Positions 1,809 through 41,584 of a stretch of 45,445 bases of DNA are shown piece by piece (position 1 is the first letter of the stretch; each line of letters opens with the position of its first letter). This DNA is from Polaromonas sp. (GTDB lineage Bacteria > Pseudomonadota > Gammaproteobacteria > Burkholderiales > Burkholderiaceae_C). Where the stretch lies: positions 1 to 45,445 of the forward strand of contig PNNC01000188.1 of NCBI GenBank assembly GCA_013824015.1, in the 5' to 3' direction. A program made the translations under genes and the position numbers. Under the pieces are notes generated by a model. It ran no database searches. It was given only the letters and a program-made list of their open reading frames with translations, and was not told the DNA's origin.

Positions 1809-1871
1809 GCTATCAATTCAGGAGCTGCTCGCCCATGCGGGACATGGGCTGACGCCGTTTTTGATGCTTAA
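1809..1871 (+). repeat. Dispersed GCTAT repeat, intergenic copy A
   Basis: Copy of a short repeat family found throughout the window. It starts with the 17-mer GCTATCAATTCAGGAGC (1809-1825) and continues through a 7-bp perfect hairpin (GCCCATG 1831-1837, CATGGGC 1843-1849) into a GGGCTGACGCC arm and a TTTTTG run. It sits between two convergent genes, and its last bases include the stop codon of the nucleotidyltransferase gene (1868-1870, minus strand). The hairpin followed by T-rich sequence could act as a weak terminator. Confidence 0.7.
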
Positions 1872-2434
1872 TCCGGGACGTGAAGCCAGGGCCAGCGTGC
1901 CTGATAGTCGCGGGCTTTTTGGGCATACAGGGCGCCATGGTCCACGCCCGGGTTGCGGCGTAGCAGGCCCCGGTACAGGTCGTCCAGGCCGTGCGGCGCA
2001 TACACCTCGACGCCGGTGCCGGTCTGGCGCAATCCCACGCTGGTACTGCCCACCAGAAAACGCTTGATGCCTTCGCAGGCGTTTTGCAGCGGCGGACACG
2101 GCCGGCCGAAATACGCCGGATACCAGGTGTGGACCCGCGCCTGGTTCTTCAGTTCCAGCGGGACGCCCAGATCGCCGAACAGCCGCTGAGCGCGCTGGTT
2201 GACGGCAGTTTCTGCGGCTTCGGACAGATCGCCCGCATCGAAGTAGAAGATGTCGTAGTCGCGGATGCCGGCGCCCGGCGGCTGGCCGCCCCGCAGGTTC
2301 CACACGGTCTGGAACAGGCAGCCGCCGACCAGCCAGGCATCGGGAAGATTCAGTTCCGGCAGGCGTTCCAGCAGCACGGCATTGCAGCGGTTGCGCAGGG
2401 CATCCTGCACAAACCGCTGCGCCAGCGCGTCCAT
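1868..2434 (-). CDS. Nucleotidyltransferase family protein (NTP_transf_6-like)
   Basis: A 188-residue protein resembling the nucleotidyltransferase-like family PF06042. The signature is the run WLVGGCLFQTVWNLR followed by GIRDYDIFYFDAGDLS, where the Gly-Gly and Asp-x-Asp elements match the minimal nucleotidyltransferase fold; a C-terminal part contains LLRRNPGVDHGALYAQKA. The biochemical role of this family is unknown. I chose ATG at 2434: the longer open frame upstream runs inside the aminotransferase gene, whose stop is at 2449, so the two genes are 14 bp apart and likely form one minus-strand unit. The gene ends inside dispersed repeat copy A. Confidence 0.75.
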   Translation of the reverse strand: MDALAQRFVQDALRNRCNAVLLERLPELNLPDAWLVGGCLFQTVWNLRGGQPPGAGIRDYDIFYFDAGDLSEAAETAVNQRAQRLFGDLGVPLELKNQARVHTWYPAYFGRPCPPLQNACEGIKRFLVGSTSVGLRQTGTGVEVYAPHGLDDLYRGLLRRNPGVDHGALYAQKARDYQARWPWLHVPD

Positions 2435-2448
2435 GGCCTGCGGCGTCG

Positions 2449-3645
2449 TTACAGGACCTTGGCGATGGACGCGCAGACGTGGTCGATGTTCTGGCTGTTC
2501 AGCGCGGCCACACACATGCGGCCGCTGTCGGTGCCGTAGACGCCGAATTCATTGCGCAGGCGCACCATCTGGTCCTTGGTCAGGCCCGAGTAGCTGAACA
2601 TGCCGATCTGCTGGGTGATGAAGCTCATGTCCTGCTTGACGCCGGCAGCTTTCAGGCCGTCCACCAGCTTCTGGCGCATGGCCTTGATGCGCACACGCAT
2701 CTCGGCCAGTTCCTTTTCCCACAGCGCGCGCAGCTCGGGGTTGTTCAGCACGTTGGCGACCACGGTGGCGCCGTGGATCTGCGGGTTGCTGTAGTTGGTG
2801 CGAATCACCACCTTCATCTGCGACAACACACGTTCGGCTTCTTCCTTGCTCTCACAGACCACGGACAGCGCGCCGACGCGCTCTCCATAAAGGCTGAAAC
2901 TTTTGGAGAATGAGGTCGAGACGAAGAAATTGAGGCCGGCAGCGACAAATTTGCCGATGACCGCGCCGTCTTCGGCAATGCCGTGGCCAAAGCCCTGGTA
3001 GGCCATGTCGAGGAAGGCGGTGAGCTTGCGCGCCTTGACCGCGGCAATCACCTGGTCCCACTGGGCGGCGGTGATGTCATAACCGGTCGGGTTGTGGCAG
3101 CAGGCGTGCAACACCACAATCGTGCCTTCCGCCGCCGCATTCAGCGCCGCCAGCATGCCGTCGAAATTGACACCGCGTTTGGCCGCGTCGTAATAGGGGT
3201 AAGTTTCGACGGTGAAGCCGGCCTGCGCGAACAGCGCGCGGTGGTTTTCCCAGCTCGGGTCACTGATCAGCACTTTGGCGTTGGGGCTGAGTTTTTTCAG
3301 GAAGTCGGCGCCGATTTTGAGGCCGCCGGTGCCGCCAATGCCCTGTGCCGTGGCGATGCGGCCGGTTTTGACCGGCTCGCTGTCGGCGCCGAAAACCAGC
3401 GCCTTGACCGCAGCGTCATAGGCGGCGACACCGTCCATCGGCAGGTAGCCGCGCGGCTTGGGCGCTTCCATCATGGCTTTTTCGGCGATTTGCACACACT
3501 GCAGCAGCGGCAGCTTGCCCTTGTCGTCGTAATACACGCCCACGCCGAGGTTGACCTTGTTCGGGTTGGTATCGGCATTGAATTGCTCGTTCAGGCCCAA
3601 TATGGGGTCACGGGGGGCCATTTCGACGGCGGTGAAAAGCGACAT
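2449..3645 (-). CDS. Aromatic/aspartate aminotransferase (PLP-dependent, class I)
   Basis: Cytoplasmic pyridoxal-phosphate enzyme that transfers the amino group between aspartate or aromatic amino acids and 2-oxoglutarate. The 398 residues match the length of E. coli AspC and TyrB. Visible landmarks are NLGVGVYYDD near the N-terminus, HACCHNPTGYD in the cofactor-binding region, the Schiff-base lysine in STSFSKSFSLYGERVG (Lys248 by codon position) and the C-terminal GRMCVAALN containing the substrate-binding arginine. Whether it prefers aspartate (AspC) or aromatic substrates (TyrB) cannot be settled by eye. It is divergent from uvrB across 177 bp and is followed 14 bp later by the nucleotidyltransferase gene. 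Confidence 0.93.
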   Translation of the reverse strand: MSLFTAVEMAPRDPILGLNEQFNADTNPNKVNLGVGVYYDDKGKLPLLQCVQIAEKAMMEAPKPRGYLPMDGVAAYDAAVKALVFGADSEPVKTGRIATAQGIGGTGGLKIGADFLKKLSPNAKVLISDPSWENHRALFAQAGFTVETYPYYDAAKRGVNFDGMLAALNAAAEGTIVVLHACCHNPTGYDITAAQWDQVIAAVKARKLTAFLDMAYQGFGHGIAEDGAVIGKFVAAGLNFFVSTSFSKSFSLYGERVGALSVVCESKEEAERVLSQMKVVIRTNYSNPQIHGATVVANVLNNPELRALWEKELAEMRVRIKAMRQKLVDGLKAAGVKQDMSFITQQIGMFSYSGLTKDQMVRLRNEFGVYGTDSGRMCVAALNSQNIDHVCASIAKVL

Positions 3646-3822
3646 GAAAATCCTTTGTTGGCAAGGGTGGTTTGTGTTTTCTAACGTGCCGGCAAGCCAT
3701 CTGGTTTACCGGGTGTTACGCAGACAGCCGGACTATCGGCGGCCTTGCGGCTGCGCCCATGATCCAAATGTCGTATTCTGTTTGGTTGCCCCGGATTTTA
3801 GCGGGCCAAAATTGGGATTCTT

Positions 3823-5943
3823 ATGCCAGAACTGATTGAAGTCATGCCCGAGGCCGGCACAGACGCCACCGCGGGCGAATTTGTGCGTTTTCCGGATTCG
3901 CCGTTCGAGTTGTTCATGCCCTACCCGCCGGCGGGTGACCAGCCGGTCGCCATCGAGCAACTGGTCGAGGGTATCCACGACGGCGAGGTGTTCCAGACCC
4001 TGCTGGGCGTGACCGGTTCCGGCAAGACCTTCACGATGGCCAATGTGATCGCCCGTCTGGGCCGCCCGGCGATTGTGTTTGCGCCCAACAAGACGCTGGC
4101 GGCCCAGCTCTACAGCGAGTTCCGCGAGTTTTTCCCGAAAAACGCGGTCGAGTACTTCGTCAGTTATTACGACTACTACCAGCCCGAGGCCTATGTGCCG
4201 CAGCGCGACCTGTTCATTGAAAAAGACTCGGCGATCAACGAACACATCGAGCAGATGCGGCTGTCGGCGACCAAAAGTGTGCTGGAGCGGCGCGACACCA
4301 TCATCGTCGCGACCGTCAGCGCGATTTACGGCATAGGCGCGCCCGAGGATTACACCCAGATGCGTTTCATCGCGCGCACCGGCGACAAGATGAACCAGCG
4401 TGACGTGATCTCGCGCCTGATCCGCATGCAGTACGCACGCAACGACCAGGACTTTGCCCGCGGCACCTTCCGCGTGCGCGGCGACGTGATCGATGTGTTC
4501 CCGGCCGAACATTCCGAGCTGGCGATCCGCATCGAGCTGTTCGACGACGAGATTGAAGCCCTGTCGCTGTTCGACCCGCTGACCGGCCGCATCCGCCAGA
4601 AGGTGCCGCGTTTTGTGGTCTATCCGAAAAGCCATTACGTCACGCCGCGCGACAAGGTCATGGCCGCCGTCGAAACCATCAAGCTCGAGCTGGCCGAACG
4701 TGTCAAACAATTTGTCGGGGACGGCAAGCTGGTCGAGGCCCAGCGTATCGAGCAGCGCACCCGTTTCGACCTCGAGATGCTCAGCGAGATCGGCCACTGC
4801 AAGGGCATCGAGAACTACACGCGCCACCTGAGCGGCGCGCCGCCGGGTTCGCCGCCTTCGACCCTGTGCGACTACCTGCCGAAGGACGCGGTGATGTTTC
4901 TCGACGAGAGCCACGTGATGATCGGCCAGCTCAACGCGATGTACAACGGCGACCGTGCGCGCAAGACCACGCTGGTCGAGTACGGCTTTCGCCTGCCGAG
5001 CGCGCTGGACAACCGGCCGCTGAAGTTCGAGGAATTCGAGTCCAAGATGCGCCAGGCGATTTTTGTCTCGGCCACGCCCGCCGCTTACGAACAACAACAC
5101 GCCGGCAAGGTGGTCGAGCAGGTGGTGCGACCGACCGGGCTGGTCGATCCCGAGGTCGAGGTGCGTCCGGCCACCCACCAGGTCGACGATGTGCTGCAGG
5201 AAATCCGCATCCGCGTCGACAAGAACGAACGCGTGCTGATCACCACGCTGACCAAACGCATGGCCGAGCAGCTGACCGACTACCTGACCGACAACGGTGT
5301 CAAGGTGCGTTACCTGCACAGCGACGTGGACACGGTGGAACGGGTGGAAATCCTGCGCGACCTGCGGCTGGGCGCTTTCGACGTGCTCGTCGGCATCAAT
5401 TTGCTGCGCGAGGGCCTGGACATCCCCGAGGTCAGCCTGGTGGCCATCCTCGATGCCGACAAGGAAGGTTTTTTGCGTGCCGAACGCAGCCTGATCCAGA
5501 CCATAGGCCGGGCCGCCCGCAACCTCAATGGCCGGGCCATCCTGTATGCCGACCGCATCACCGACTCGATGAAAAAGGCCATGGACGAGACCGAAAGGCG
5601 TCGCAACAAGCAGATCGCCTTCAACCTCGAACATGGCATCACGCCGAGGAGCATCGTCAAGCGCATCAAGGACCTGATCGACGGGGTGTACAGCGAGAAG
5701 TCCGGCAAGGACGCGGAGAAGCTCGAACTGCAGAAGGCGCTGGTCGAGGACATGAGCGAAAAAGACATCGCCCGCGAGATCAAGCGCCTCGAAAAGCAGA
5801 TGGTCGAACACGCCAAAAACCTGGAGTTCGAGAAAGCCGCCCGGGTGCGCGACCAGTTGCACGTGCTCAAGGCGCAGGCTTTCGGCGCGCCGGGGACCGA
5901 CAACGTCTTGCCGTTTCCGGCGGCGGGATCCGGGACCGCCTGA
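3823..5943 (+). CDS. uvrB: Excinuclease ABC subunit B
   Basis: DNA-damage recognition helicase-like subunit of the UvrABC nucleotide excision repair system; it verifies damage handed over by UvrA and recruits UvrC. The 706-residue protein has Walker A GVTGSGKT at residues 62-69, the beta-hairpin region with [13 protein letters not shown] that inserts between strands, the helicase motif FLDESHVM, helicase motif VI-type sequence QTIGRAARN, and a C-terminal UVR domain ([19 protein letters not shown]) that binds UvrC. It has about 25 extra N-terminal residues before the [17 protein letters not shown] start of the core. I see no CTG-N10-CAG LexA box in the 177-bp upstream region, so SOS control as in E. 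coli is not evident. It stands alone on its strand. Confidence 0.97.
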
Positions 5944-6070
5944 ATAACCTTTCATCATTCTCGGGAACTGCCGGGCCGGACCTGACTCCAAAAAGCGGGG
6001 CAGGTGGCGTTTTCCGGGCGAGAAACCCCGGTTCCAGAGGGAGCCAGGCACTGCAACCGGACGTCCCCTG

Positions 6071-6099
6071 TGGTATACTTGATTAAAACAGTCAACAAC
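6071..6099 (+). promoter_or_regulatory. isc operon promoter with overlapping IscR type 1 operator
   Basis: An extended -10 element (TG at 6071-6072, then TATACT at 6074-6079) is overlapped by bases 6075-6099, which match the E. coli IscR type 1 consensus (ATASYYGACTRWWWYAGTCRRSTAT) at 22 of 25 positions by my count; the mismatches are at 6083, 6097 and 6099. IscR carrying a [2Fe-2S] cluster binds such sites and represses its own operon. The -35 region is poor (CTGCAA at 6051-6056). The 121-bp leader before iscR contains possible stems at 6105-6136 and 6152-6177. Confidence 0.82.
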
Positions 6100-6220
6100 A
6101 ATAAGCCCCGGACTGAAAAGGCCATTCGGCCGGGGTGGGTGGAGAAGAGTTCCTTGCGGGCCACAAGCTTTGCAAGGTGAGCCAAACGACAGTCAAGCCA
6201 ACTTTTTAAGGAGCTTGAAA

Positions 6221-6757: not shown

Positions 6758-6771
6758 TCCGGCCGGTCGCT

Positions 6772-6809
6772 GCCGGTGAAACACCGGCGGCGGACTGCCG
6801 ACTTTTTTT
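6772..6809 (+). other. Hairpin and T-run between iscR and iscS
   Basis: GCCGGTG (6772-6778) and CACCGGC (6782-6788) form a perfect 7-bp stem with an AAA loop, and a run of seven T lies at 6803-6809. The 14-base gap between stem and T-run makes this a poor intrinsic terminator, but a structured RNA here could separate iscR expression from that of iscSUA. Function is inference. Confidence 0.3.
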
Positions 6810-6847
6810 GATGCTGCAAGCCAGCCATGACATAAAAAGCTAGCCAC

Positions 6848-8065: not shown

Positions 8066-8104
8066 GCGCCAGCTTTAACGCACATCAGACCAGAGGTAAA
8101 CAAA

Positions 8105-8491: not shown

Positions 8492-8513
8492 ACTTTCCAC
8501 CGACCTGCGCACC

Positions 8514-8978: not shown

Positions 8979-8989
8979 TTCGTCTCACC

Positions 8990-9511
8990 GTGCCCTCGCT
9001 CCAATCCAACGATTTCGAACTCTTCGATATTCCCGTGCAGTTTGCGCAGGACGGCGCCGTGCTCGATGCGCGCTGGAAAGAGTTGCAGCGCGAGGCGCAT
9101 CCTGACAAGTTCGCGGCGCAGGGCGCTGCCGCGCAGCGGCTGGCGATGCAGTGGTCGGTGCGTATCAACGAGGCCTACCAGCGGCTGAAAAACCCGCTCA
9201 AGCGGGCCATGTACCTGTGTGAATTGCATGGTGCGCCGATCGAGGCGGAAAGCAACACCGCCATGCCCGCCGACTTCCTGATGCAGCAGATGCAGTGGCG
9301 CGAGGCGCTGGATGACGCGGACGGCATCACCCATCTTGAGGAAATCGCGGCCCAGGCCATGTCCAGCAAGCGTGAGCAGCTATCAAAAATAGAGCGACTG
9401 CTGGACGTCGCAAAGGACTTTCCGGCGGCGGCCCGGCAGGTGAGAGGCCTTATGTTTATTGAGCGTTTTGCCGGTGAGGTCGATGCGCGCATCGACGCGC
9501 TGGGACAATAG
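8990..9511 (+). CDS. hscB: Co-chaperone HscB (J-domain protein)
   Basis: J-domain co-chaperone that brings IscU to HscA and stimulates its ATPase. The 173-residue protein has the J-domain HPD tripeptide at residues 37-39 (REAHPDKFA) followed by INEAYQRLKNPLKRAMYLCELHG, and a C-terminal helical IscU-binding domain. Translation appears to begin at GTG 8990, just 11 bp after a large inverted repeat; no strong Shine-Dalgarno sequence is visible. Codons 130-136 contain the 17-mer GCTATCAAAAATAGAGC, a core shared with a dispersed repeat family, without obvious length change relative to E. coli HscB. Confidence 0.94.
   Translation: MPSLQSNDFELFDIPVQFAQDGAVLDARWKELQREAHPDKFAAQGAAAQRLAMQWSVRINEAYQRLKNPLKRAMYLCELHGAPIEAESNTAMPADFLMQQMQWREALDDADGITHLEEIAAQAMSSKREQLSKIERLLDVAKDFPAAARQVRGLMFIERFAGEVDARIDALGQ
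9379..9395 (+). repeat. Core 17-mer of the dispersed GCTAT repeat inside hscB
   Basis: GCTATCAAAAATAGAGC lies in frame in hscB. It matches the 17-mer in dadA (GCTATCAAAAATGTAGC, 26802-26818) at 15 of 17 positions. The rest of the element is not convincingly recognisable here, so this may be a decayed or partial copy. Confidence 0.4.
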
Positions 9512-9545: not shown

Positions 9546-11420
9546 ATGGCCTTACTGCAAATCTCCGAACCCGGCCAGACGCCGGATCCGCACCAGCGGC
9601 GCATCGCCATCGGCATCGACCTGGGCACCACCCATTCGCTGGTGGCCAGCGTGCGCAATGGCGTGGCCGAATGCCTGCCCGATGCCCAGGGCCGGGTGAT
9701 CCTGCCCAGCGTGGTGCGTTACGGCATCGATGATTCGGGGACCGTGACCCGCCAGATCGGCTACGAGGCCCTGGCGGCGCAGGTGGCCGATCCCAAGAAC
9801 ACGATTGCCTCGGTCAAGCGCCTGATGGGGCGCGGCATGGCCGACATCGTCAGCCGTGCGCAGCTTCCCTACGAATTGATTGACAAGCCGGGCATGGTTG
9901 CCGTTCAGACCGTCGCCGGCGAAAAAAGCCCGGTCGAGGTCAGTGCCGAGATTCTGGCGACGCTGCGCTACCGGGCGGAAGACACCTTCGACGACGACAT
10001 CTTCGGCGCGGTGATCACCGTGCCGGCTTATTTTGACGATGCGCAGCGCCAGGCGACCAAGGACGCCGCCCAACTGGCCGGCATCCATGTGCTGCGCCTG
10101 ATCAACGAACCGACGGCTGCAGCCATTGCTTACGGCCTCGACAACGCCAGCGAAGGCGTCTACGCGATCTACGACCTGGGCGGCGGTACCTTTGACATTT
10201 CCATCCTGCGCCTGAGCCAGGGCGTGTTTGAAGTGGTGTCCACCGGCGGCGACTCCGCGCTGGGCGGCGACGACTATGACCGCGCGCTGGTTCAGTGGGT
10301 TCTCGACAAGGCCGGGGTGGCTTCCGACACGCTGACACCTGGCGACAAGGCGGCCCTGCTGCAGACCGCTCGGGCCTGCAAGGAGGCTTTGTCTGCTACA
10401 GATTCCGTAGCATTCTCGGCACGTCTGACAAGGGCCAACGTCCAATTTGACATGAAGGCGGAGGACTTCGAGGCGGCCACCGCATCGCTGACACAACGCA
10501 CGCTGGCGGCAGTGCGCAAGGCCCTGCGCGACGCGGAACTCGGCAAGGACGATGTGCAGGGCGTGGTGCTGGTGGGCGGCTCCACCCGCATGCCGCAGGT
10601 GCGGCGCGCGGTCGGCAGTTTTTTTGGACGCGAGCCGCTGACCAACCTGAACCCTGACGAAGTGGTGGCGCTGGGTGCAGCGGTCTCCGCCCATCAGCTG
10701 GCCGGCAATGCCGGCGGCAGCGAGTTGCTGCTGCTCGATGTGATTCCGCTGTCGCTGGGCATTGAAACCATGGGTGGCCTGGTCGAACGCATCGTGCCGC
10801 GCAACCAGACCATCCCGACGGCGATGGCGCAGGACTTCACGACCTACCAGGACGGCCAGACCGCCCTGGCCCTGCATGTGGTGCAGGGCGAGCGCGACCT
10901 GGTGGCCGACTGCCGCAGCCTGGCGCGTTTCGAGCTGCGCGGCATTCCGCCGATGGCCGCCGGTGCGGCACGCATCCGCGTGACCTTCACGGTGGATGCG
11001 GACGGCCTGCTCAGCGTCAACGCCAGGGAGCAGGGCAGCGGGGTGGAAGCGCGCATTGATGTGAAACCGTCCTACGGCCTGTCGGACGAGGACATCGCGC
11101 GCATGCTGCAGGAGAGCTTTTCCACTGCCCAGCAGGACATGCAGGCGCGTGCGCTGGCCGAGGCGCAGGTCGATGCCGACCGCATGTTGCTGGCCACCCA
11201 AAGCGCTATCACCGCCGATGGCGACCTGCTTCCCGCGGATGAACGTGCGGACATTGACCGCCTGATGGCCGAGCTGGCCCGGATTCGCCAGCAGGGCGAT
11301 GCCGCGCAGATCGAAGCCGCCGTCAAGGCACTGGCCAACGGTACCGAAAATTTTGCCGCGCAGCGCATGAACCGCGGCATCCGCCAGGCGCTGGCCGGCA
11401 AGAACATCGCCACGGTCTGA
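9546..11420 (+). CDS. hscA: Hsp70-type chaperone HscA
   Basis: Specialised Hsp70 that drives cluster release from IscU in an ATP-dependent cycle with HscB. The 624-residue protein has the actin-like ATPase domain with [14 protein letters not shown] near residue 20, [28 protein letters not shown] and [14 protein letters not shown], then the substrate-binding domain starting around [18 protein letters not shown]. It follows hscB by 34 bp and precedes fdx by 14 bp. Residues about 284-304 are encoded by a copy of a dispersed repeat (10396-10455); this falls in the ATPase domain between ACKEAL and TLAAVRKAL and adds roughly four residues compared with E. coli HscA by unaided alignment. Confidence 0.96.
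10396..10455 (+). repeat. Dispersed GCTAT repeat inside hscA (copy C)
   Basis: Begins with GCTACAGATTCCGTAGC (10396-10412) and contains ACAAGGGCCAACGTCCAATT at 10429-10448. Bases 10429-10451 match the minus strand of the dadA-rpsB intergenic copy (27571-27593) at 22 of 23 positions, which is strong evidence for a common origin. The copy is read through in frame by hscA. Confidence 0.75.
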
Positions 11421-18844: not shown

Positions 18845-19089
18845 TTTTCCGCAGGGCCGCCCCAAGGAAAACACGCCCCCAAGGGGCTGGAGCCTGCGGC
18901 TCCAAAGCTGCTTGAGCAGCTTTGGACAGGCGACAGAGGCGAAGCGTCTCGCGAGCCGCGGCCTGCAAGGCCTCGAGAATTACACGCAGTGAATGAGCGT
19001 GGGGGCCATTTTTCCGCAGGGCCGCCCCAAGGAAAACACGCCCCCTCGGGGGGCAGAGAATTACACGCAGTGAATGAGCGTGGGGGCCA
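18845..19089. repeat. Composite repeat block between relA and tRNA-Val(GAC)
   Basis: This fills most of the 313-bp gap from 18814 to 19126. A 36-base unit beginning TTTTCCGCAGGGCCGCCCCA occurs identically at 18845-18880 and 19010-19045. A 34-base unit beginning GAGAATTACACGCAGTGAAT occurs identically at 18975-19008 and 19056-19089. The order is A, spacer, B, A, B, so the right half looks like a tandem duplication with the spacer lost. The spacer holds a long palindrome. Short GC-rich self-complementary stretches (CCCCCTCGGGGGG) recur. No coding potential is credible here. Confidence 0.85.
18901..18926. repeat. Perfect 12-bp inverted repeat
   Basis: TCCAAAGCTGCT (18901-18912) and AGCAGCTTTGGA (18915-18926) are exact complements around a TG centre. 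It lies within the first composite repeat unit after relA, next to a smaller hairpin GAGCC-TGC-GGCTC at 18890-18902. There is no T-run behind it, so it is not a typical terminator. Confidence 0.8.
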
Positions 19090-19126: not shown

Positions 19127-19203
19127 AGGCGCGTAGCTCAGCTGGTTAGAGCACCACCTTGACATGGTGGGGGTCGTTGGTTCGAGTCCAATCGCGCCTA
19201 CCA
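19127..19203 (+). tRNA. tRNA-Val, anticodon GAC
   Basis: A 77-base cloverleaf with encoded CCA. The acceptor stem is AGGCGCG (19127-19133) with CGCGCCT (19193-19199); the anticodon stem is CCACC/GGTGG with anticodon GAC at 19161-19163; the T arm contains GGTTCGAGTCC. It reads GUC and GUU codons and complements the CAC isoacceptor 5 kb upstream. Confidence 0.97.
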
Positions 19204-24709: not shown

Positions 24710-26227
24710 CGCCGAAGCAGTCAGTGCCTGCCCAGGGTGGCTGGCCGGCCAGGCATCGGCCAGCAGGCCATGCTGCAACACCGCGCTGCAGGCCGCTTCC
24801 AACGCCGGTAACCCCGCCGCCAGCGCCGCGCCCAGCATGCCTGCCAGCACATCGCCGGTGCCGGCTGTGGCCAGGCGCGCATTGCCGCTCGGGTTGATCA
24901 CCGGGATGGCACCGGGCGCGGCGATCACCGTGCCCGAGCCCTTGAGCACCACCCCACACTGAAACTGCGCGGCCAGCCGCGTTGCCGCATCCAGCCGATC
25001 CGCCTGCACCGCGGCTGTGCTGCTGCCCAGCAGCCGCGCCGCTTCCAGCGGGTGCGGGCTCAGCAGGGTGCGCCAGCCTCTCGCGGCGCGGGCGCGCAGC
25101 AGGGCCTGCAAGGAGGTGTCGCCGGCCACCGCGTTGAGCCCGTCGGCGTCGAGCACCAGGGTCTGGGCCTTCGACAGGACGCGCGGCAGCACCGCGGCCA
25201 TGGCCGCGCCGCCGCCGCAGCCGCAGACCACGACCTGACGGGCCAGGTCGAGGGCGTCCAGGCTGCGGAACATCAGCTCGGGCTGCTGCGGGTCCACCGT
25301 GATGGCTGGCTTGCCCAGCAGCGCGACAAACACCCGGCCGGCACCCGCATGCAGGGCGGCGCGGCCGGCCAGCAGCGCGGCGCCGGCCATGTGCGTGGTG
25401 CCGGCGGACTCGCCGCCGATGATGGCCACATCACCAAAGCTGCCCTTGTGGCTGCTGTGGCGCGCCTGTGCGCGCCCGGCCGCTCCATAACGATCCTGTC
25501 CCGCCAGCCAGGCATCGGGCGCCGTGTCCGCAGGCGGCGTGACCCCCAGGTCGTCCCACCAGACCTGGCCGGCCAGATCCCGTCCGGCGGCGGGGAACAA
25601 ACCCGGCTTCAGGGTCAAAAAACTCAGGCAAAAACGGGCGCCAGCCCTTTCCGAACAAGGGGATGCAGCTATGAATTCAGGAGCAAGGTCGGTTCCGGTG
25701 CCGGCCTCCAGGCCGCTCGGGATGTCGAGTGCCAGCACCGGCGCGCTGCAACTGCGCAGACAGCGCAGCCAGTCCGCCAGGCGACTGGCCTCCGCGCTGG
25801 CGTCGCCGGTTCGCGGCGTGGCGCCTATGCCCAGCAGCGCATCGATGGCGAAGTCAAAGCCGGCCGGCGGTACGTCGGCAAAGGGCACACCGGCGGCGCG
25901 CGCCCGCCGCAGCGAAGCCAGCGCGTCGGCCGGCAACCGGCCTTCGCGTTCAGCCCGTTCGCCCAGCCAGGTCACGCTGACGGCTTGGCCCCAGCGGTGC
26001 AGGTGTAGCGCCGCTTCCAGGCCGTCACCACCGTTGTTGCCGGGTCCGCAGGCAATCCAGATGTTTTGCGCATGGGGTGCCAGGGCCAGCGTCAGCCGTG
26101 CGGCGGCCAGACCGGCGCGCTGCATCAGCGTGTGGGGGGGCAGCGTCGCGGCCGCTTGCTGTTCCAGCCGGCGCGTTGCTGCGACGCCATGAAGGGGCAG
26201 GGTGAGGGCGGTGGAAAGCTGGTGCAT
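24656..26227 (-). CDS. nnr: Bifunctional NAD(P)H-hydrate epimerase / ADP-dependent dehydratase
   Basis: Metabolite-repair enzyme that restores damaged NADH and NADPH. The 523-residue protein joins a YjeF N-terminal epimerase domain (ACGPGNNGGDGLEAALHLHRWG at about residue 60, IDALLGIGATP) to a C-terminal ribokinase-like dehydratase domain (HKGSFGDVAIIGGESAGTTHMAGAALLAGRAAL and SGNARLATAGTGDVLAGMLGAAL). Residues about 182-202 are encoded by a dispersed repeat, and the linker between PSGL and FLTLKPGL is about ten residues longer than in E. coli YjeF by my alignment. It lies 18 bp downstream of dadA and overlaps yggT antiparallel by 54 bp. The final residues are Gln-rich (QADLQQQQQHQR). Confidence 0.92.
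   Translation of the reverse strand: MHQLSTALTLPLHGVAATRRLEQQAAATLPPHTLMQRAGLAAARLTLALAPHAQNIWIACGPGNNGGDGLEAALHLHRWGQAVSVTWLGERAEREGRLPADALASLRRARAAGVPFADVPPAGFDFAIDALLGIGATPRTGDASAEASRLADWLRCLRSCSAPVLALDIPSGLEAGTGTDLAPEFIAASPCSERAGARFCLSFLTLKPGLFPAAGRDLAGQVWWDDLGVTPPADTAPDAWLAGQDRYGAAGRAQARHSSHKGSFGDVAIIGGESAGTTHMAGAALLAGRAALHAGAGRVFVALLGKPAITVDPQQPELMFRSLDALDLARQVVVCGCGGGAAMAAVLPRVLSKAQTLVLDADGLNAVAGDTSLQALLRARAARGWRTLLSPHPLEAARLLGSSTAAVQADRLDAATRLAAQFQCGVVLKGSGTVIAAPGAIPVINPSGNARLATAGTGDVLAGMLGAALAAGLPALEAACSAVLQHGLLADAWPASHPGQALTASALAENHQADLQQQQQHQR
25624..25684 (-). repeat. Dispersed GCTAT repeat inside nnr (copy D)
   Basis: On the minus strand it starts GCTCCTGAATTCATAGC (25684-25668) and continues TGC...GGGCTGGCGCCCGTTTTTG. 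The arm aligns with intergenic copy A (1826-1863) at roughly 27 of 38 positions, including the GGGCTG-GCC-TTTTTG landmarks. It is translated in frame as part of the loop APEFIAASPCSERAGARFC in Nnr. Confidence 0.7.
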
Positions 26228-26245: not shown

Positions 26246-27508
26246 CTAGCGCCTGAGGCGGCTGACGTCGAAGCCGTCCATGTCGATCGCCGGCGTTTTG
26301 CCGCCGACCAGGTCGGCCACAGCCCGTGCGCTGCCGCAGCTCAGGGCCCAGCCGCTGGAGCCATGGCCCAGATTGAGCCACAGGCCGGGCAGGCCGCTGG
26401 CGCCGAGGATGGGCGGGCCGTCGGGCAGCATGGGCCGGGCGCCTTTCCATTCCTGCACGCTGGCGCCGGTGCTGGAAGTGTGGGCCGCCCCCGGAAACCA
26501 GTCCTGCAGCACCTTGTACAGCGTCTGCACCGAGGCCGCGCGTTTTTTGTCGGGGTTGCCGCCGATCTCGGCGCTGCCGGCCACGCGCACGCGGTTGCCC
26601 AGCCGGGAAATCGCGACCTTGTAGCGTTCGTCCATCAGCGCGCTGCGCGGCGCGTTGAGCGGCTCGCGAACCGGCGCGCTGATCGAGTAGCCGTAGACCG
26701 CTGCCAGCGGGATGGACAGGCCCAGCGGCCTGAGCAGTCGGGCCGATGCCAGGCCGGCACACAGTACCACCGCGTCGAAGCTGCGTGGCGCACTTTCGCC
26801 TGCTATCAAAAATGTAGCTGGTTGCGACCGTTCCATATGGGCTACCGCCTTGTTGAACTCAAAACTGACACCCAGGCGCTGGGCTTCGGTTTTGAGCAGC
26901 AGTGCGAACTGCCGGCAGTTGGCAACTTCGTCGTCGGGCAGGTGCACCGCGCCCAGCAAGGCCGTGTCCGGGTTCAGCGCCGGCTCGATCTTGCGCGCCT
27001 CGTCGCTGCCGACCTGGCGGAAAGCCACACCGGCGTCGCGCAGTACCTGCAGGCCGGGCTCCACCATGCGGGCGTCGGCTTCGGCGCGCAGCAGCACCAG
27101 GTAACCCGGGCTGCGGTCGTACTCGAGCTGCCGGTCGGCGCTGATCTGGTGCAGGCGTTCCCGGCTGTAAAACGCCAGGCGCTGCAGCCGGGCCCGATTG
27201 GCCAGGTAGGTGTCCAGCCGGCAGGCGCGCCACCATTTCCACATCCAGGCCAGCTCGCTGCCGGACAGGGGCAGGCCCAGGGTCACGGGTGCATGGCGGC
27301 TGAACAGGTGGCTCAGGACCTTGCGTGGCATGCCCGGGCTGGCCCAGGGGGTGACGTAGCCGGGTGCGACCACGCCGGCATTGGCAAAACTGCCTTCTTC
27401 GGCGGCCGCGCCACGGCGTTCAAACACGGTGACCGTGTGGCCGTCCATGGCCAGCTCCCAGGCGGTGGTGATGCCGATGATGCCGGCGCCGATGACGGCG
27501 ACTTTCAT
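26246..27508 (-). CDS. dadA: D-amino acid dehydrogenase (DadA-like FAD enzyme)
   Basis: Membrane-associated flavoprotein that oxidatively deaminates D-amino acids such as D-alanine and passes electrons to the respiratory chain. From ATG 27508 the protein begins MKVAVIGAGIIGITTAWELA (FAD-binding GxGxxG), with FANAGVVAPGYVTPWASPG, EWKGARPMLPDGPPILG and the C-terminal NLGHGSSGWALSCGSARAVADLV that closes the flavin site; 420 residues, close to E. coli DadA. An upstream in-frame ATG at 27574 adds 22 residues without family similarity. Residues about 216-236 coincide with a dispersed repeat copy. It is the first gene of a dadA-nnr unit; the alanine racemase gene often paired with dadA is not present. 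Confidence 0.88.
   Translation of the reverse strand: MKVAVIGAGIIGITTAWELAMDGHTVTVFERRGAAAEEGSFANAGVVAPGYVTPWASPGMPRKVLSHLFSRHAPVTLGLPLSGSELAWMWKWWRACRLDTYLANRARLQRLAFYSRERLHQISADRQLEYDRSPGYLVLLRAEADARMVEPGLQVLRDAGVAFRQVGSDEARKIEPALNPDTALLGAVHLPDDEVANCRQFALLLKTEAQRLGVSFEFNKAVAHMERSQPATFLIAGESAPRSFDAVVLCAGLASARLLRPLGLSIPLAAVYGYSISAPVREPLNAPRSALMDERYKVAISRLGNRVRVAGSAEIGGNPDKKRAASVQTLYKVLQDWFPGAAHTSSTGASVQEWKGARPMLPDGPPILGASGLPGLWLNLGHGSSGWALSCGSARAVADLVGGKTPAIDMDGFDVSRLRR
26802..26862 (+). repeat. Dispersed GCTAT repeat inside dadA (copy E)
   Basis: Plus-strand core GCTATCAAAAATGTAGC (26802-26818), then an arm containing CATATGGGCTACCGCCTTGTTG that aligns with CATGGGCTGACGCCGTTTTTG of copy A. 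The element lies antisense to dadA and is read through in frame, giving the protein segment EFNKAVAHMERSQPATFLIAG. Confidence 0.65.
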
Positions 27509-27570
27509 GGCCGGGCCTGGCGTGAACGGATGGACATCGATGGAATCAGGGTAAAACGCATGTTTCTTGC

Positions 27571-27626
27571 TCAAATTGGCCGTTGGCCCTTGTTGTACAA
27601 GGGCATTCAGCTATCATTTTTATAGT
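27571..27626 (-). repeat. Dispersed GCTAT repeat, intergenic copy I
   Basis: Plus-strand core GCTATCATTTTTATAG (27610-27625); the arm lies to the left and reads on the minus strand as ACAAGGGCCAACGGCCAATT (27593-27574). Bases 27571-27593 match copy C in hscA at 22 of 23 positions. An internal hairpin CCCTTGT-TGT-ACAAGGG spans 27588-27604. Confidence 0.8.
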
Positions 27627-27707
27627 ATTCCGGCCGACCGGGGGGACCGCGCCTGCGCCCGGAGGCGGTGGCGGGGTGAGCCGACCGGCGACTACGGGTG
27701 ACGGGGA

Positions 27708-32652: not shown

Positions 32653-33840
32653 ATGACCCTGCAGAAACAACGCGTTACCGTTTTGGGCTCGACCGGCTCG
32701 GTCGGCGTCAACACGCTGGATGTGATCGCCGGCCATCCCGACCGCTTCGAGGTGTTTGCCCTCAGTGCGTCCACCCAGACCGAACTGATGCTGGCGCAGT
32801 GTTTGCGCTTCCGGCCGGCCTATGCCGTCATGGCGAGCGCCCCGCATGGCCGCGATCTGGCCGAAAAATTGAAGGCAAATGGGCTGTCGACCCATGTCCT
32901 GCTTGAAAACAATGCTCTTGAAATCATAGCGTCCGACGAACGTGTCGACACCGTGATGGCGGCCATCGTCGGCGCCGCGGGACTGGGCGCCTGCATGGCG
33001 GCCGCGCGGGCCGGCAAACGCCTGCTGCTGGCCAACAAGGAAGCCCTGGTGGTCGGCGGCGAGGTCTTCATGCAGGCGGTGCGCGAGGGCGGCGCCCAGT
33101 TGCTGCCGATCGACAGTGAACATTCGGCGATTTTCCAGTCCCTGCCCGAGGACCCGGCGGCCTGGGCCGAGCGGATTGACAAGATCATCCTGACCGCCTC
33201 CGGCGGCCCGTTCCGTACCCGTGCGCCGGCCAGCCTGCGCGACGTCACGCCGGAGCAGGCCTGTGCCCACCCGAACTGGGTCATGGGGCGGAAAATTTCG
33301 GTGGATTCCGCCACCATGATGAACAAGGCGCTCGAAGTGATCGAGGCGCGTTACCTGTTCGGACTGGCGCCGGCGCAGATCGAGGTGGTGATCCATCCGC
33401 AAAGCATCATCCATTCGATGGTCCAGTACCGCGACACCTCGGTGGTGGCCCAGCTCGGCACGCCCGACATGCGGGTGCCGATTGCCTACGGGCTGGCCTG
33501 GCCCGGCCGGATCAGTTCGGGCGCCCAGGCGCTCGACTTCCGGGCGCTGGCCACCATGACCTTCTCGGTGCCCGACGACGCGCTGTTTCCCGGCCTGCCG
33601 CTGGCCTGGGAGGTGCTGGACGCGCCGGCAGGCACCACGGCCGTGCTGAATGCGGCCAATGAAGTGGCGGTCGCGGCTTTTCTCGAAAAACGGATACGCT
33701 TCGACCAGATTCATGCCGTGAACCGCGCGACGCTGGACGCAGTGTTTGCGTCCGCCATTCGCGGCATCGGGGATTTGCTGGAACTGGACCAGCGGTCGCG
33801 CGCGGTGGCGACCGGCCTGGCTGCGAACCTGACCACCTGA
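32653..33840 (+). CDS. dxr: 1-deoxy-D-xylulose 5-phosphate reductoisomerase
   Basis: First committed enzyme of the MEP isoprenoid pathway, NADPH- and metal-dependent. The 395-residue protein has LGSTGSVGVNTLDVI (NADPH binding) at the N-terminus, ANKEALVVGG, the metal and substrate region PIDSEHSAIFQSL, and GRKISVDSATMMNKALEVIEA. It supplies isoprenoids used by UppS two genes upstream. Residues about 71-93 are encoded by a dispersed repeat copy, yet the segment from YAVM to VMAAIVGAAG has the same length as in E. coli Dxr by my count. Confidence 0.97.
   Translation: MTLQKQRVTVLGSTGSVGVNTLDVIAGHPDRFEVFALSASTQTELMLAQCLRFRPAYAVMASAPHGRDLAEKLKANGLSTHVLLENNALEIIASDERVDTVMAAIVGAAGLGACMAAARAGKRLLLANKEALVVGGEVFMQAVREGGAQLLPIDSEHSAIFQSLPEDPAAWAERIDKIILTASGGPFRTRAPASLRDVTPEQACAHPNWVMGRKISVDSATMMNKALEVIEARYLFGLAPAQIEVVIHPQSIIHSMVQYRDTSVVAQLGTPDMRVPIAYGLAWPGRISSGAQALDFRALATMTFSVPDDALFPGLPLAWEVLDAPAGTTAVLNAANEVAVAAFLEKRIRFDQIHAVNRATLDAVFASAIRGIGDLLELDQRSRAVATGLAANLTT
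32865..32930 (-). repeat. Dispersed GCTAT repeat inside dxr (copy G)
   Basis: On the minus strand it begins GCTATGATTTCAAGAGC (32930-32914), which matches the copy D core read on the plus strand (GCTATGAATTCAGGAGC) at 14 of 17 positions, and continues into GGACATGGGTCGACAGCCCA, resembling the GGACATGGGCTGACGCC arm of copy A. It is read in frame by dxr. Confidence 0.55.
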
Positions 33841-33853
33841 CCGGAGTATTGCC

Positions 33854-35221: not shown

Positions 35222-35234
35222 TTCCATATTTTTC

Positions 35235-37529: not shown

Positions 37530-38035
37530 TGAAGCATTTCCCATCCAAGTTGTTTCTGGCTGCCGCGATGGCACTGGTCACCTGCGCTGCGGCGGCGCAG
37601 GAGTTCAAGATCGGCATTGTCAACATTGACCGTATCTTCCGCGAGGCCAACAGCGCCAAGGCGGCCCAGGCCAAGCTCGAGCAGGAGTTCGGCAAGCGTG
37701 AAAAAGAGCTTGGTGATCTCGGTACCCAGCTGAAAACACTGGCCGACAAGTTTGAGCGCGAAGCGCCGACCCTGTCCGAAAGCCAGCGCGCCACGCGTCA
37801 AAAGCAGCTGGTCGAGCAGGACCGCGACTTCCAGCGCAAGCGCCGCGAATTCCAGGAAGACCTCAATGCACGCAAGAACGAGGAACTGCAACAGGTGATC
37901 GAGCGTGCCAACAAGGTGGTCAAAACGGTTGCCGAAACCGAAAAATACGACCTGGTGCTGCAGGAGGCGGTGTACGCCAATCCCAAGCACGACATCACCG
38001 ACAAGGTCATCAGGGCGCTCAACGCTGCCAGATAA
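37529..38035 (+). CDS. skp: Periplasmic chaperone Skp/OmpH
   Basis: Trimeric periplasmic holdase that carries unfolded outer-membrane proteins to BamA. The 168-residue precursor has a signal peptide ([23 protein letters not shown] before [11 protein letters not shown]) followed by a long charged coiled-coil region (residues about 50-130, rich in Lys, Glu, Gln and Arg) that forms the tentacles, and a C-terminal return to the body ([22 protein letters not shown]). Directly coupled to bamA by overlap and followed 20 bp later by lpxD. Confidence 0.94.
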
Positions 38036-38055
38036 GCATTGATCACAGGTCCGGC

Positions 38056-39123
38056 GTGACGCTCAGACTCGGGGACATCGTTGCATCGCTGGCCGGTGAG
38101 TTTGACGCCAGGCTGGTCGGCGACCCGGATGTCCTGATCCAGCGGCTCGCGCCCCTCGAATCCGCCGGCCCCGCCGAACTCAGCTTCCTGAGCCACATCA
38201 GATACCAGGGCAAGCTGGCCCAGTCGGCCGCAGCCTGTGTGGTGGTCGGCCCGCAGGCAGAGCCGGTGGCGGCACTGCGCGGTGCCTGCATCGTCGTCGG
38301 CGATCCCTATCTCTATTTCGCCCGCATCACCCAGCTCTGGAAAAAAAGCCACCAGTTTGCTGCGGCAACGGGTATTCATCCGACGGCATTTGTTGACCCT
38401 TCGGCCCGGCTCGCGCCGGACGTGTCGGTTGGCGCGTTTGCCTGCATTGGCGCGCATGCCGTGGTGGGGGCGGGTGCCCGCATTGGCGAGCATGGCGTGA
38501 TCGGCCGCGACGTGGTGATCGGCGCGCAAACGCGGCTGGCGGCGCGTGTCACGGTGGCGGACGGCTGCGTCATCGGCGAGCGCTGCATCGTGCATCCGGG
38601 CGTGGTGATCGGCGCCGATGGTTTCGGCTTTGCGCCGAACAACGGGGCGTGGGAAAAAATCGAGCAGCTCGGCGCGGTGCGTATCGGCAACGACGTGGAA
38701 ATCGGCGCCAACACCTGCATTGACCGCGGCGCCCTGCAGGACACGGTGATTGAGGATGGCGTCAAGCTCGACAACCTGATCCAGATCGGCCACAACGTCC
38801 ACATCGGCCGGCACAGCGCGCTGGCCGGCTGCGTCGGCGTGGCGGGCAGCGCCAGCATAGGCGCTCACTGCACCGTCGGCGGCGGCGCGGTGGTGCTGGG
38901 GCACCTGAGCCTGGCCGACCACGTGCATGTCTCGGCGGCATCGGTGGTCACACGTTCCATCCGCAAGCCGGGGCATTACACCGGGCTGTTTCCCATCGAC
39001 GACAATGCGAGCTGGGAAAAAAATGCCGCCACGCTCAAACAGCTTCACGGATTGCGTGAACGCCTCAAGCTGATGGAGCAGACCACCGCCACCGCTTCTC
39101 GAAAGAACCCCGAAAAATCATGA
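38056..39123 (+). CDS. lpxD: UDP-3-O-(3-hydroxyacyl)glucosamine N-acyltransferase
   Basis: Third step of lipid A synthesis: transfers the second 3-hydroxyacyl chain. The 355-residue protein has an N-terminal uridine-binding domain, then a left-handed beta-helix of hexapeptide repeats from about residue 110 ([26 protein letters not shown]), with the catalytic-type histidine in [10 protein letters not shown] (His246), and a C-terminal helix. Start is GTG 38056. Its TGA overlaps the fabZ ATG by four bases (ATGA). Confidence 0.96.
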
Positions 39124-39560
39124 TGGACATCCACCAAATCCTCAAGCAGCTGCCGCACCGCTACCCCTTCCTGCTGGTGGACCGGGTGCTCGAACTCGAA
39201 AAGGGCAAACGCATCAAGGCGCTGAAAAACGTCACCATGAACGAGCCGTTTTTCACCGGCCATTTTCCGCACCGGCCCGTGATGCCGGGTGTGCTGATGC
39301 TCGAAGCCATGGCGCAGGCCGCGGCGCTGCTGGCCTTTGACATGCAGGGCATCACGCCTGACGAGAAGACGGTGTATTACTTTGCCGGCATTGACGGCGC
39401 GCGTTTCAAGCGGCCGGTGGAGCCGGGTGACCAGCTGATCATGGACGTCACGCTGGAGCGGCTCAAGGCCGGTGTGTTCAAGTTCAAGGGCGTGGCCCGC
39501 GTGGACGACAACATGGCCTGCGAGGCCGAACTGATGTGCACCATGCGCACCATCGCCTGA
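39120..39560 (+). CDS. fabZ: 3-hydroxyacyl-[acyl-carrier-protein] dehydratase
   Basis: Hot-dog fold enzyme that removes water from 3-hydroxyacyl-ACP in fatty-acid elongation, in balance with LpxA/LpxD, which draw on the same substrate. The 146-residue protein has catalytic His48 in [12 protein letters not shown] and Glu62 in [16 protein letters not shown]. The start may be ATG 39120 or the adjacent ATG 39123. It overlaps lpxD and is 22 bp from lpxA. Confidence 0.96.
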
Positions 39561-39582
39561 GCCAGACAGCGAAAGCGCTTCC

Positions 39583-40377
39583 GTGACAGGCATTCACTCC
39601 ACCGCGCTGGTCGATCCCGCGGCCGAGCTCGACAGCAGCGTCAGCGTCGGTCCCTACACCGTGATCGGTCCCCATGTCCGCATCGGTGCCGGCACCTCGG
39701 TCGGCGCGCACTGCGTGATCGAAGGCCGCACCACCATCGGCCAGGGCAACCGCATCTTCCACTTCGTTTCGCTGGGTGCGGTGTCGCAGGACAAGAAGTA
39801 CGCGGGCGAGCCCTGCGAGCTGGTGATCGGCGACCGCAACACCATCCGCGAATTCAGCACCTACCACATTGGCACCGCGCAGGACGCGGGTGTCACCCGC
39901 CTGGGCAACGACAACTGGATGATGGCCTACACCCATCTGGCGCACGACTGCCAGGTCGGCAACAACACCACCTTCGCCAACAACGCGCAGATTGCGGGCC
40001 ATGTGCACGTGGGCGACTTTGCCATCATGGGCGCCTACACCAACGTCCATCAGTTCGTGAGGATAGGCGCGCATGCGATGACCGGCATGGGCACCACGCT
40101 GCTGGCCGAAGTCCCGCCGTTCGCGATGGTGTCGGGCAACCCGGCGGCCGCCCGGTCGATGAATTACGAAGGCCTGCGCAGGCGCGGGTTTTCTGCAGAA
40201 CGCATCGCCGCCGTCAAGGCCATGCACAAGGCCATCTACCGCGACGACCTGACGCTGGAACAGGCGCGCGAACGGATCGCCGGCCTGGCGGAGAAGACGC
40301 CGGAAGCCGCGCCTGACGTGGCGATGATGGTCTCTTTTCTCGCCGCCGTTTCGCCGCAACGCGGCATTGTGCGTTAG
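39583..40377 (+). CDS. lpxA: UDP-N-acetylglucosamine acyltransferase
   Basis: First enzyme of lipid A synthesis, acylating UDP-GlcNAc at the 3-position. The 264-residue protein is a left-handed beta-helix ([26 protein letters not shown] onward) with the catalytic histidine region [13 protein letters not shown] and [22 protein letters not shown], ending in the helical C-terminal domain. Start GTG 39583; an eight-base gap separates its stop from the GTG proposed for lpxB, or the genes overlap if lpxB starts at TTG 40367. Confidence 0.96.
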
Positions 40378-40384
40378 GCCCGTC

Positions 40385-41584
40385 GTGCCGCACGCAAGCA
40401 GCTCTCTGCCGGCCCGTGGAGTGGCTGGTTCCCCGACCTCTCCGTCGTTCGCCCTGGTGGCCGGTGAAACCTCCGGCGACCTGCTGGCCGGGCTGCTGCT
40501 GGACGGTTTTCGCGCGCGCTGGCCGCAACTGCGGGCCGGCGGCATTGGCGGCACGCAAATGGTACGGCGTGGTTTCGAGGCCTGGTGGCCCAGCGAAAAG
40601 CTGGCGGTGCGCGGTTATGTCGAGGTGTTGCGGCATTACCGCGAGATTGTCGGCATCCGTACGCAACTCAGGCAGAAACTGCTGACGGAACGGCCCGATG
40701 TCTTCATCGGCGTCGATGCACCCGATTTCAACCTCGATCTGGAGGCCGACCTCAAGGCGGCCGGCATCCGGACGGTGCATTTCGTCAGCCCCGCAGTCTG
40801 GGCCTGGCGTGCCGAACGGGTGGAGAAAATCCGGCGCAGCGTGGACCATGTGCTCTGCATTTTTCCCTTTGAGCCGGCCTTGCTGGCGCAGCACGGCATC
40901 GCGGCCACCTATGTCGGGCATCCGCTGGCCAATGTGATTCCCCTGCAACCGGATCAGGCGGCGGCGCGGCGGCAACTGGGCCTGTTGCCGGAGGATCTCG
41001 TGCTGGCGCTGCTGCCGGGCAGCCGCCGCTCCGAGGTCGATTACCTGGCTGATCGCTTCTTTCAGGCTGCAGCCCTTGTCCGGCAAGCGCATCCAGCTAT
41101 CAAAATCATCGTGCCTGCGGTTCCGGCCCTGCGTGCACAGATCGAGCAGTGCGCGCAGGCGGCGGGCATGCTGGCCCATGTACAGATTTTTTCCGGCCAG
41201 TCCCACAGCGCGCTGGCGGCCTGTGATGTGACCCTGATTGCCAGCGGCACGGCCACGCTGGAGGCGGCGCTGTACAAGCGCCCCATGGTGATTGCCTACA
41301 ACATGAACTGGCTGTCCTGGCAGATCATGCGGCGCAAGAAGCTGCAGCCCTGGGTCGGCCTGCCCAACATCCTGTGCCGCGATTTTGTGGTGCCGGAACT
41401 GCTGCAGGACGCGGCCACCCCGCGAGCGCTGGCCGCTGGCGTGTTGCAGTGGCTGGATGCGAAAATCTCGGCGCCCGACAAAATCACCGTCCTCGAACAA
41501 CGATTTACAAAGCTGCATGAGGAATTGCAGCGCGATACCGCGAAAATAGCCACCGATGCGATCCAGAACATTCTTGCAGGCTGA
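40385..41584 (+). CDS. lpxB: Lipid-A-disaccharide synthase
   Basis: GT-B glycosyltransferase that joins UDP-diacylglucosamine and lipid X into the lipid A disaccharide. Taking GTG 40385 gives 399 residues with [18 protein letters not shown] near the start, [42 protein letters not shown] and [24 protein letters not shown], all hallmarks. An alternative start is TTG 40367, which overlaps lpxA. Residues about 226-243 ([17 protein letters not shown] region) coincide with a candidate dispersed repeat copy but align to E. coli LpxB without length change. Confidence 0.95.
41060..41112 (-). repeat. Candidate dispersed GCTAT repeat inside lpxB (copy F)
   Basis: The plus strand has GCTATCAAAATCAT at 41096-41109; to its left the minus strand reads CCGGACAAGGGCTGCAGCCT (41083-41064), resembling the GGACAnGGGCTG-GCC arm of other copies. 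The far end of the 17-mer is not conserved, so this copy is less certain. Confidence 0.45.

Follow-up and report, generated by a model that had tools for sequence, protein, structure and literature searches.

A degenerate motif of ~67 nt at largely fixed sites in and between genes of Polaromonas and related genera

Introduction

The stretch of DNA studied here, 45,445 nucleotides from a Polaromonas sp. (GenBank assembly GCA_013824015.1, contig PNNC01000188.1; the whole stretch is called the window below), contains a repeat that lies mostly inside core genes, among them hscA, dxr and lpxB. The initial annotation of the window described seven copies of a 55-65 bp unit, most of them read through in open reading frames, and suggested a mobile or copied element that may spread by replacement rather than by simple insertion. 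This raises the question of how one sequence comes to lie in the coding regions of unrelated enzymes, and whether it was inserted there at all. Comparison of the window with the rest of its genome and with the genomes of relatives revealed a degenerate motif of ~67 nt. Its sites, both in and between genes, differ little from species to species and occur in many genera of the family. For the majority of the window genes, presence or absence of the motif among relatives tracks substitutions and not a change in length.

The repeat unit and its abundance

The repeat is real, both in the window and in the surrounding genome (G000, 3.8 Mb in 234 contigs; relatives are numbered G004, G005, G017 and so on), whose lpxB, methyltransferase and dxr genes cluster with those of Polaromonas. 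A covariance model trained on 28 copies located elsewhere in G000 recovered nine copies from the window (E ≤0.023; Table 1), all of them single and with 40-56% G+C. Information per position extends from about position 2 to position 68 and is near background on either side, giving sharp boundaries to a unit of ~67 nt, somewhat longer than first described. The unit is composed of an imperfect palindrome, GCTAT...ATAGC, a second palindrome, GCGCTTG...CATGGGC, and then TGGAGGCC, ATTT and AA. The information, 50-58 bits per site, is distributed over its whole length.

A pattern of 26 bases derived from the copies in the window occurs with ≤2 mismatches at 282 places in G000 (145 forward, 137 reverse), and the same pattern read backwards at 2 forward and 0 reverse places. 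With a position weight matrix (PWM) of 68 columns, 128 matches scoring ≥5 were found in 786 kb of G000, the 32 copies on which the matrix was trained being among them, and 137 in 827 kb of the relative G017. None were found in reversed G000 DNA, in a dinucleotide-block shuffle (786 kb), or in 32.8 kb of two congeners that have no matches to the model, G005 and G013. The density is ~1 per 6 kb, which extrapolates arithmetically to ~620 copies per genome. The genome-wide family supposed by the initial annotation is supported, and the shuffled control named there gave no matches. All seven copies listed there match the covariance model (15.8-58.5 bits, dxr being the weakest), although the copy in the SpoU-family methyltransferase gene had been missed and what was taken for a bare core in hscB is a full-length copy. 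The agreement at 22 of 23 bases between hscA and positions 27571-27593 holds, with the hscA span shifted by one base to 10428-10450.

Window genes and their orthologues

Orthologues of the seven window genes holding a copy were taken from up to 27 genomes. There is no internal gap across the site in six of the seven alignments (hscB, hscA, dadA, dxr, lpxB and the methyltransferase gene); nnr is the exception, with gaps between species at the variable-length loop that holds the site. At the five sites aligned from G005 and G013, which have 0 model matches genome-wide, the PWM score falls to between -13 and -54. Alignments of hscB and hscA are gapless against 10 orthologues each, with scores of 40 and 31 in G000, 38 and 19 in G017, and 37 and 26 in G004, respectively; at hscB the motif-free G005 and G013 score -50 and -39. 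For dadA, 12 of 13 orthologues score ≥9.8 over the corresponding codons, without an internal gap, and the remaining one (G003) scores -44. The motif is present in lpxB and the methyltransferase gene of all bearing congeners aligned and in dxr of most, and LpxB is gapless at the site against the solved chain 5w8n. Several early statements are upheld: copies inside core genes are read through whichever way they point, dxr and lpxB show no change in length, and presence differs between orthologues, motif-free relatives lacking the motif at the same codons.

A wider set of 80 named-species loci around lpxB was classed by the number of other motif matches in each locus. The lpxB motif is found in 36 of 38 loci with ≥2 other matches, 5 of 8 with one and 1 of 34 with none, this single locus being 3.7 kb long. 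The corresponding fractions are 36/37, 5/8 and 0/32 for the methyltransferase gene and 27/34, 3/6 and 0/26 for dxr. Presence in these three genes is therefore bimodal among the 80 loci, and the alignments are gapless in 80 of 80 loci for lpxB, 66 of 68 for dxr and 74 of 77 for the methyltransferase gene. Bearers include Polaromonas, Curvibacter delicatus, Hylemonella, Rhodoferax CA144, Ramlibacter PRO44 and Xylophilus. A few of them lack the motif at one gene: Burk 336R and Xylophilus at lpxB, Ramlibacter PRO44 at the methyltransferase gene, and seven loci at dxr, three of which form the Curvibacter delicatus/PD_MW3/Hylemonella group. No matches were found in any locus named Hydrogenophaga, nor in the three whole Hydrogenophaga genomes searched. 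A test of synonymous entropy (bearing minus motif-free, low ranks being best) gave mixed support, the site ranking 2 of 371 windows in dxr (core 3 of 384), 20 of 382 in lpxB (core 25 of 394) and 50 of 235 in the methyltransferase gene (core 5 of 248).

Loss inside Polaromonas

A tree of 69 rows was built from up to three genes with the site codons omitted. Because its root is arbitrary, gain and loss are polarised only where losses are nested inside Polaromonas and not at the depth of the family. In this three-gene tree JS666 and CF318, and separately the isolate LacPavin, nest inside bearing Polaromonas clades. Whole-genome counts rest on the best 150 scored candidates per genome (125 in the survey of the genus and order, 20 in that of the family); among the matches listed, JS666 has 4, CF318 6 and LacPavin 6, against 107 in the sister YR568.

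Sites of YR568 and b69 were compared with JS666 in eight alignments covering five distinct sites, of which seven are gapless and one contains one gap column. PWM scores, 25-57 in YR568 and b69, range from -27 to 14 in JS666, seven of them below 5, at a site identity of 0.63-0.87 and a flank identity of 0.77-0.91. Against CF318, seven of the eight are gapless and one has 12 gap columns, and the scores range from -32 to 9. The encoded peptide shifts with the motif, LpxB reading AIKFIV in YR568 and b69 and AVRFVV in JS666. Nearly all copies have thus disappeared from at least one lineage of Polaromonas (JS666/CF318), by substitution where these could be aligned. A further candidate for such a loss, NC_groundwater_594, looked decayed at lpxB, dxr and the methyltransferase gene but was set aside with 101 matches genome-wide among the matches listed. 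As a lead for a possibly lost receptor, matches to PF16732, the ComP_DUS-type pilin, number two in YR568 and one each in JS666 and CF318.

Fixed sites and drifting letters in two genomes

Between G000 and G017, whose median nucleotide identity is 88%, 43 of 49 alignable sites are common, 17 of 18 in genes and 26 of 31 in spacers. The 51 rows on the G000 side comprise these 43, six that are not common (one in-gene, five intergenic) and two in-gene sites that are unalignable; the 47 rows on the G017 side comprise the 43, three intergenic sites that are not common and one that is unalignable. Copy 6 of the window is common to both, without a gap. All eight unshared intergenic sites were inspected and no clean 67-bp empty site was seen between the two genomes; seven have at least one flank unmatched in the contig of the other genome and one has an inserted gene. 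The sole unshared in-gene site (G000:C1:55277) is gapless and differs by substitutions, which are rather clustered there, so block replacement is possible at this place.

Across 14 gapless in-gene sites common to both genomes, identity is 92.2% at high-information positions, 86.5% in the flanks and 74-82% at the other positions of the site; across seven common intergenic sites it is 90.1%, 73.6% and 69%, respectively. This contrast is partly built in, since the sites were picked by score in both genomes. Differences at the 14 in-gene sites stay within the letters allowed by the motif in 71% of cases against 37% at random, a comparison that is itself partly circular.

The mobile or copied element now spreading, as first proposed, is mostly unsupported: the in-gene sites tested are common to many bearing species at the same codons without gaps, loss proceeded by substitution in JS666 and CF318, and the comparison of G000 with G017 showed no clean 67-bp presence or absence. 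In preferring replacement to simple insertion the earlier interpretation had the direction right, but most of the data fit substitution toward a recognised motif and not block copying, and as a whole it is partly supported.

Placement in the genome

Table 1. Copies of the motif in the window, with their scores from the covariance model
Copy	Position	Strand	Location	Bits	Remarks
1	1807..1874	+	intergenic	58.5	E 9.6e-13; last 7 bases overlap called gene 1868-2434 (minus)
2	9330..9397	-	in hscB, antisense	20.1	
3	10393..10460	+	in hscA, sense	21.1	
4	25619..25686	-	in nnr, sense	29.3	variable-length loop
5	26800..26867	+	in dadA-type gene, antisense	39.2	
6	27561..27628	-	between dadA-type gene and next gene	44.4	overlaps 14 bases of a called open reading frame start
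7	32865..32932	-	in dxr, antisense	15.8	weakest copy; E 0.023; PWM 25
8	41047..41112	-	in lpxB, antisense	31.8	
9	42343..42410	-	in SpoU-family rRNA methyltransferase gene 42170-42949, antisense	31.7	host gene has a Pfam SpoU_methylase match

The E-value of copy 7 applies at the scale of the window; at the scale of the genome this copy, taken alone, is below significance. All in-gene and intergenic counts are bounded by the gene calls, which came from a home-made hexamer finder. Residence mostly inside open reading frames, as first described, holds for the window, where seven of nine copies are in genes, but not for the genome sample, where 44 of 128 are (24 antisense, 20 sense), though 90% of the DNA is coding. 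The spacer copies of G000 are divided into 35 between convergent, 40 between tandem and 9 between divergent genes, corresponding to 3.2, 0.86 and 0.38 copies per kb of spacer, and are thus densest between convergent genes. The counts for G017 are 36 of 137 in genes, with 34 convergent, 62 tandem and 5 divergent. In-gene copies of G000 are weaker on average (PWM 39.8 versus 52-61). Taking G000 and G017 together, in-gene copies show no clear preference of orientation (45 antisense, 35 sense), and 60 of the 80 use two of the six frames and encode similar peptides.

Some individual places may be recorded here. The competence channel gene comEC of G000 (L185:4576-6960, G000:C11 ~45657) holds one in-gene copy with a PWM score of 26. 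An EamA-type transporter gene (G000:C7:51046-51963) holds three sites scoring 63, 20 and 5; it is missing at the matching place in G017 (G017:C126:31045), and the junction there carries a site. Apart from the motif, the window contains two pairs of short repeats, 42-nt units at 18845 and 19010 with 95% identity and 34-nt units at 18975 and 19056 without a difference, all within 18845-19089 beside a tRNA gene (19127-19200).

Range within the family

Of the genomes sampled in the family, 73 of 250, belonging to 48 of 141 genera, have matches to the model. In the genus itself 20 of 25 genomes match, G000 counted, and none of 16 genomes from other families of the same order do. The model was built from G000 and may miss other dialects. 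A retrained PWM found 42 and 52 copies in 200 kb each of complete genomes of two other genera, against 0 in the reversed control, and in both genera the second palindrome reads GCGC instead of GGGC on its 3' side. The arms of the motif vary by genus in a manner like dialects. A different sequence, GCTTAT(N)5AAGCG, reported for Acidovorax ebreus, occurs in genomes of two other genera (G160 and G112), at 7 and 3 places in the 200 kb searched of each, and at none in the G000 and G017 DNA tested; it is perhaps a second motif family.

Searches of mobile DNA used a degenerate 68-nt query of low power. It gave one weak match in 72,556 plasmid records, and the consensus had none in phage records; in viral contigs, seven stretches match a pattern against none for its reversed form. 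Among transposases, the Y1 family (Y1_Tnp) was considered as a possible partner and rejected, as 29 of the 30 genomes have its gene and motif-free genomes are among them. The RAYT-like Y1-transposase gene of G000 is at G000:C23:32616-32939, and most genomes, with or without the motif, have a single copy.

Interpretation

For most sites, the motif has probably been maintained by substitution. As to what maintains it, the reading that we favour, and to which we would give an even chance, is a motif recognised in trans and kept at fixed sites, most likely resembling an uptake signal of unusual length. A factor acting in trans would recognise either orientation of the motif in double-stranded DNA, selection or transmission bias would retain improved matches where coding constraint permits, and after loss of the factor base and codon bias would erase the sites. 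The most likely factor would be sequence-selective uptake in natural transformation, with the motif working like the uptake sequences of the Neisseriaceae and Pasteurellaceae; selective uptake as the putative function is, by analogy, slightly less probable than its opposite. More tentatively still, the motif could be an independent and very long (67-bp, two-palindrome) self-recognition signal subject to drive via transformation, with genus dialects, lineage losses and an imprint on enzymes like LpxB. Some 13.6 bits would suffice arithmetically for ~620 sites, and the excess at 50-58 bits per site is as drive would predict.

Selective transformation is on record in the family. Verminephrobacter eiseniae takes up DNA in a type-IV-pilus-dependent and sequence-selective manner, and Acidovorax temperans gave transformants only with DNA of its own species; the portions of that paper drawn on here name no uptake sequence for either (PMC4212676). 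One paper argues that uptake sequences originate through point mutation where the DNA is unconstrained, and describes them as free of chromosomal orientation bias and not palindromic (PMC1939737). Dialects and gene-end pairs of uptake sequences have also been described (PMC3630211).

Several observations weigh against a maintained, uptake-like motif. Among 11 species, the hscA site has the motif in G000 and its close relatives G017 and G004 alone and is negative in the other eight, six of which bear the motif elsewhere, and the hscB site is weak in several bearing species (5 in G014, -3 in G011, 8 in G012, 13 in G024, 23 in G010 and 24 in G019); both sites, likewise gapless, look younger or decaying. 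Around its site the methyltransferase is four residues longer than the solved chain 7qiu. Longer loops than in solved homologues are also found at copies in other genes: TrmJ, whose gene holds the strongest in-gene site (PWM 85), has a net 19 additional residues against the 3kty chain, the alignment being gapped across the region of the site, and 20 against 4xbo between aligned blocks; GluQ-RS has 34 against 1nzj between two aligned blocks enclosing the site; CobU and PutA have 10 and 7 around theirs; and the nnr product has 10 against the solved TM0922 protein at the site loop. Since these copies sit in longer loops, an older insertion is possible for trmJ, gluQ, cobU, putA and nnr. Close pairs of sites are below the simulated mean but within the simulated range, with 11 gaps of <1 kb (mean 16.6, range 6-29) and, in a second genome, 9 (mean 18.6, range 7-32). 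The G139 chromosome has a weak strand bias, 6 of 300 permutations being as strong, as judged from its best 150 matches only. Competence genes do not separate bearers from motif-free genomes, ComEC being found in all 55 genomes searched, with or without the motif, and ComP_DUS-type pilins in 43 of 44, and known uptake sequences are 9-11 nt in length (PMC4212676). We regard uptake as putative because these genes do not separate the bearers and because the length, palindromes and low density of the motif are unlike those of known uptake sequences.

An unlikely but serious alternative is that the motif binds an intracellular architectural protein (gyrase, an IHF/HU-like protein, or a nucleoid or segregation factor) and is retained at gene ends and tolerated inside genes, in a role like the topological one that has been proposed for BIMEs. 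The density between convergent genes, which hold 35 of the 128 sites, fits such a role, as do the palindromic make-up, the weak strand bias along a chromosome and the lack of a clear orientation relative to genes, and near-complete loss in one lineage would fit loss of the factor. Yet enrichment at gene ends follows equally from low constraint, the information per site is far beyond the need of one binding protein, and the motif changes residues of a core enzyme although its absence from Hydrogenophaga loci and its near-complete loss in JS666 are tolerated. Rather less probable, and in our view improbable, is an ancient mobile palindromic repeat of the REP, MITE or Rickettsia palindromic element kind, now immobile, with the in-gene copies as its relics. 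Its sharp boundaries, the additional residues in TrmJ, GluQ-RS, CobU, PutA and the nnr product, and the widespread Y1-transposase gene fit such an origin; that gene is, however, present in motif-free genomes too, six window genes among orthologues and LpxB against 5w8n are gapless at the site, G000 and G017 offer no clean empty site, and relics are not expected to hold high-information positions above the identity of their flanks.

The two hairpin-like palindromes and the location at gene ends might also suggest a structured RNA element or a terminator acting in transcripts, but base pairs in both palindromes are about as common as, or rarer than, independent columns predict, in-gene copies occur in both orientations, and an Rfam search of the window reached the gathering score at two tRNAs only and at none of the copies; we consider this highly improbable. 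Chance resemblance combined with ordinary coding conservation is hardly credible: the weakest copies, in dxr, hscB and hscA, score 16-21 bits and might by themselves invite it, but the controls gave zero matches, and in motif-free genomes the corresponding codons of orthologues with comparable protein identity have clearly negative scores.

If a trans-recognised motif is indeed maintained here, a long motif that shapes codons of core genes and has vanished from nearly the whole genome of a sister lineage would amount to a clear natural experiment on molecular drive. The motif would also be a candidate signal for the unexplained sequence-selective transformation reported in the Comamonadaceae, and JS666 or CF318 paired with YR568 are strains in which the recognising factor could be sought. 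Even if uptake is wrong, this is a motif system in 48 of 141 sampled genera with no assigned function found in the literature searched.

Comparison with known systems

No description of the 67-nt motif was found in the literature searched, mainly top-ranked results and mostly non-subscription papers. REP/BIME and MITE families form hundreds of palindromic copies near gene ends, extragenic or inserted. The present motif shares the number, palindromes and position of these families; it differs in adding no length at six of seven window genes and in a presence that does not track the Y1 transposase. Rickettsia palindromic elements are integrated units of ~150 bp (PMC10969869) and resemble the motif in their in-frame residence in unrelated genes and in recurring peptides, here encoded through two preferred frames, but the window genes other than nnr hold their sites without a change in length, lengthening being possible for trmJ. 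The BRE repeats, ~90 bp with a mean of 69% G+C in Bordetella, form tandem arrays and number 29 in JS666 (PMC3110155). They too are repeats found in the Comamonadaceae with some copies wholly within coding sequences; the shorter length, lower G+C and single copies of the window repeat, and its 4 matches in JS666, set it apart by description. The nearest in taxonomy is a spaced pentamer motif of P. naphthalenivorans CJ2, ATAGCT(N)22CAAAAG, reported at 125 places, 101 intergenic and 18 in genes, 34 of the copies lying between convergent genes, with no function given in the part of the source consulted (PMC5217627). It belongs to the same genus, has ATAGCT in common and is similarly distributed at gene ends. 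Its spacing is absent from the 786 kb of G000, 827 kb of G017 and 636 kb of named Polaromonas loci searched, a set that did not include CJ2, which would make it, at most, a sibling or a dialect.

The uptake sequences of the Neisseriaceae (DUS) and Pasteurellaceae (USS) are the closest parallel that we can offer. An extended form of the Haemophilus uptake sequence reaches ~30 nt, and the present motif departs from all of these in being ~67 nt with 50-58 bits per site and no short core of ~10 nt, in its two palindromic blocks, and in its lower density. It resembles them in being over-represented genome-wide, in genes and in spacers, and in presence and loss without insertion at six window genes and in JS666 and CF318; the direction of gain is unrooted, and nnr, trmJ, gluQ, cobU and putA stand outside this likeness. 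Enrichment at gene ends, genus variants like dialects and preferred reading frames complete the resemblance.

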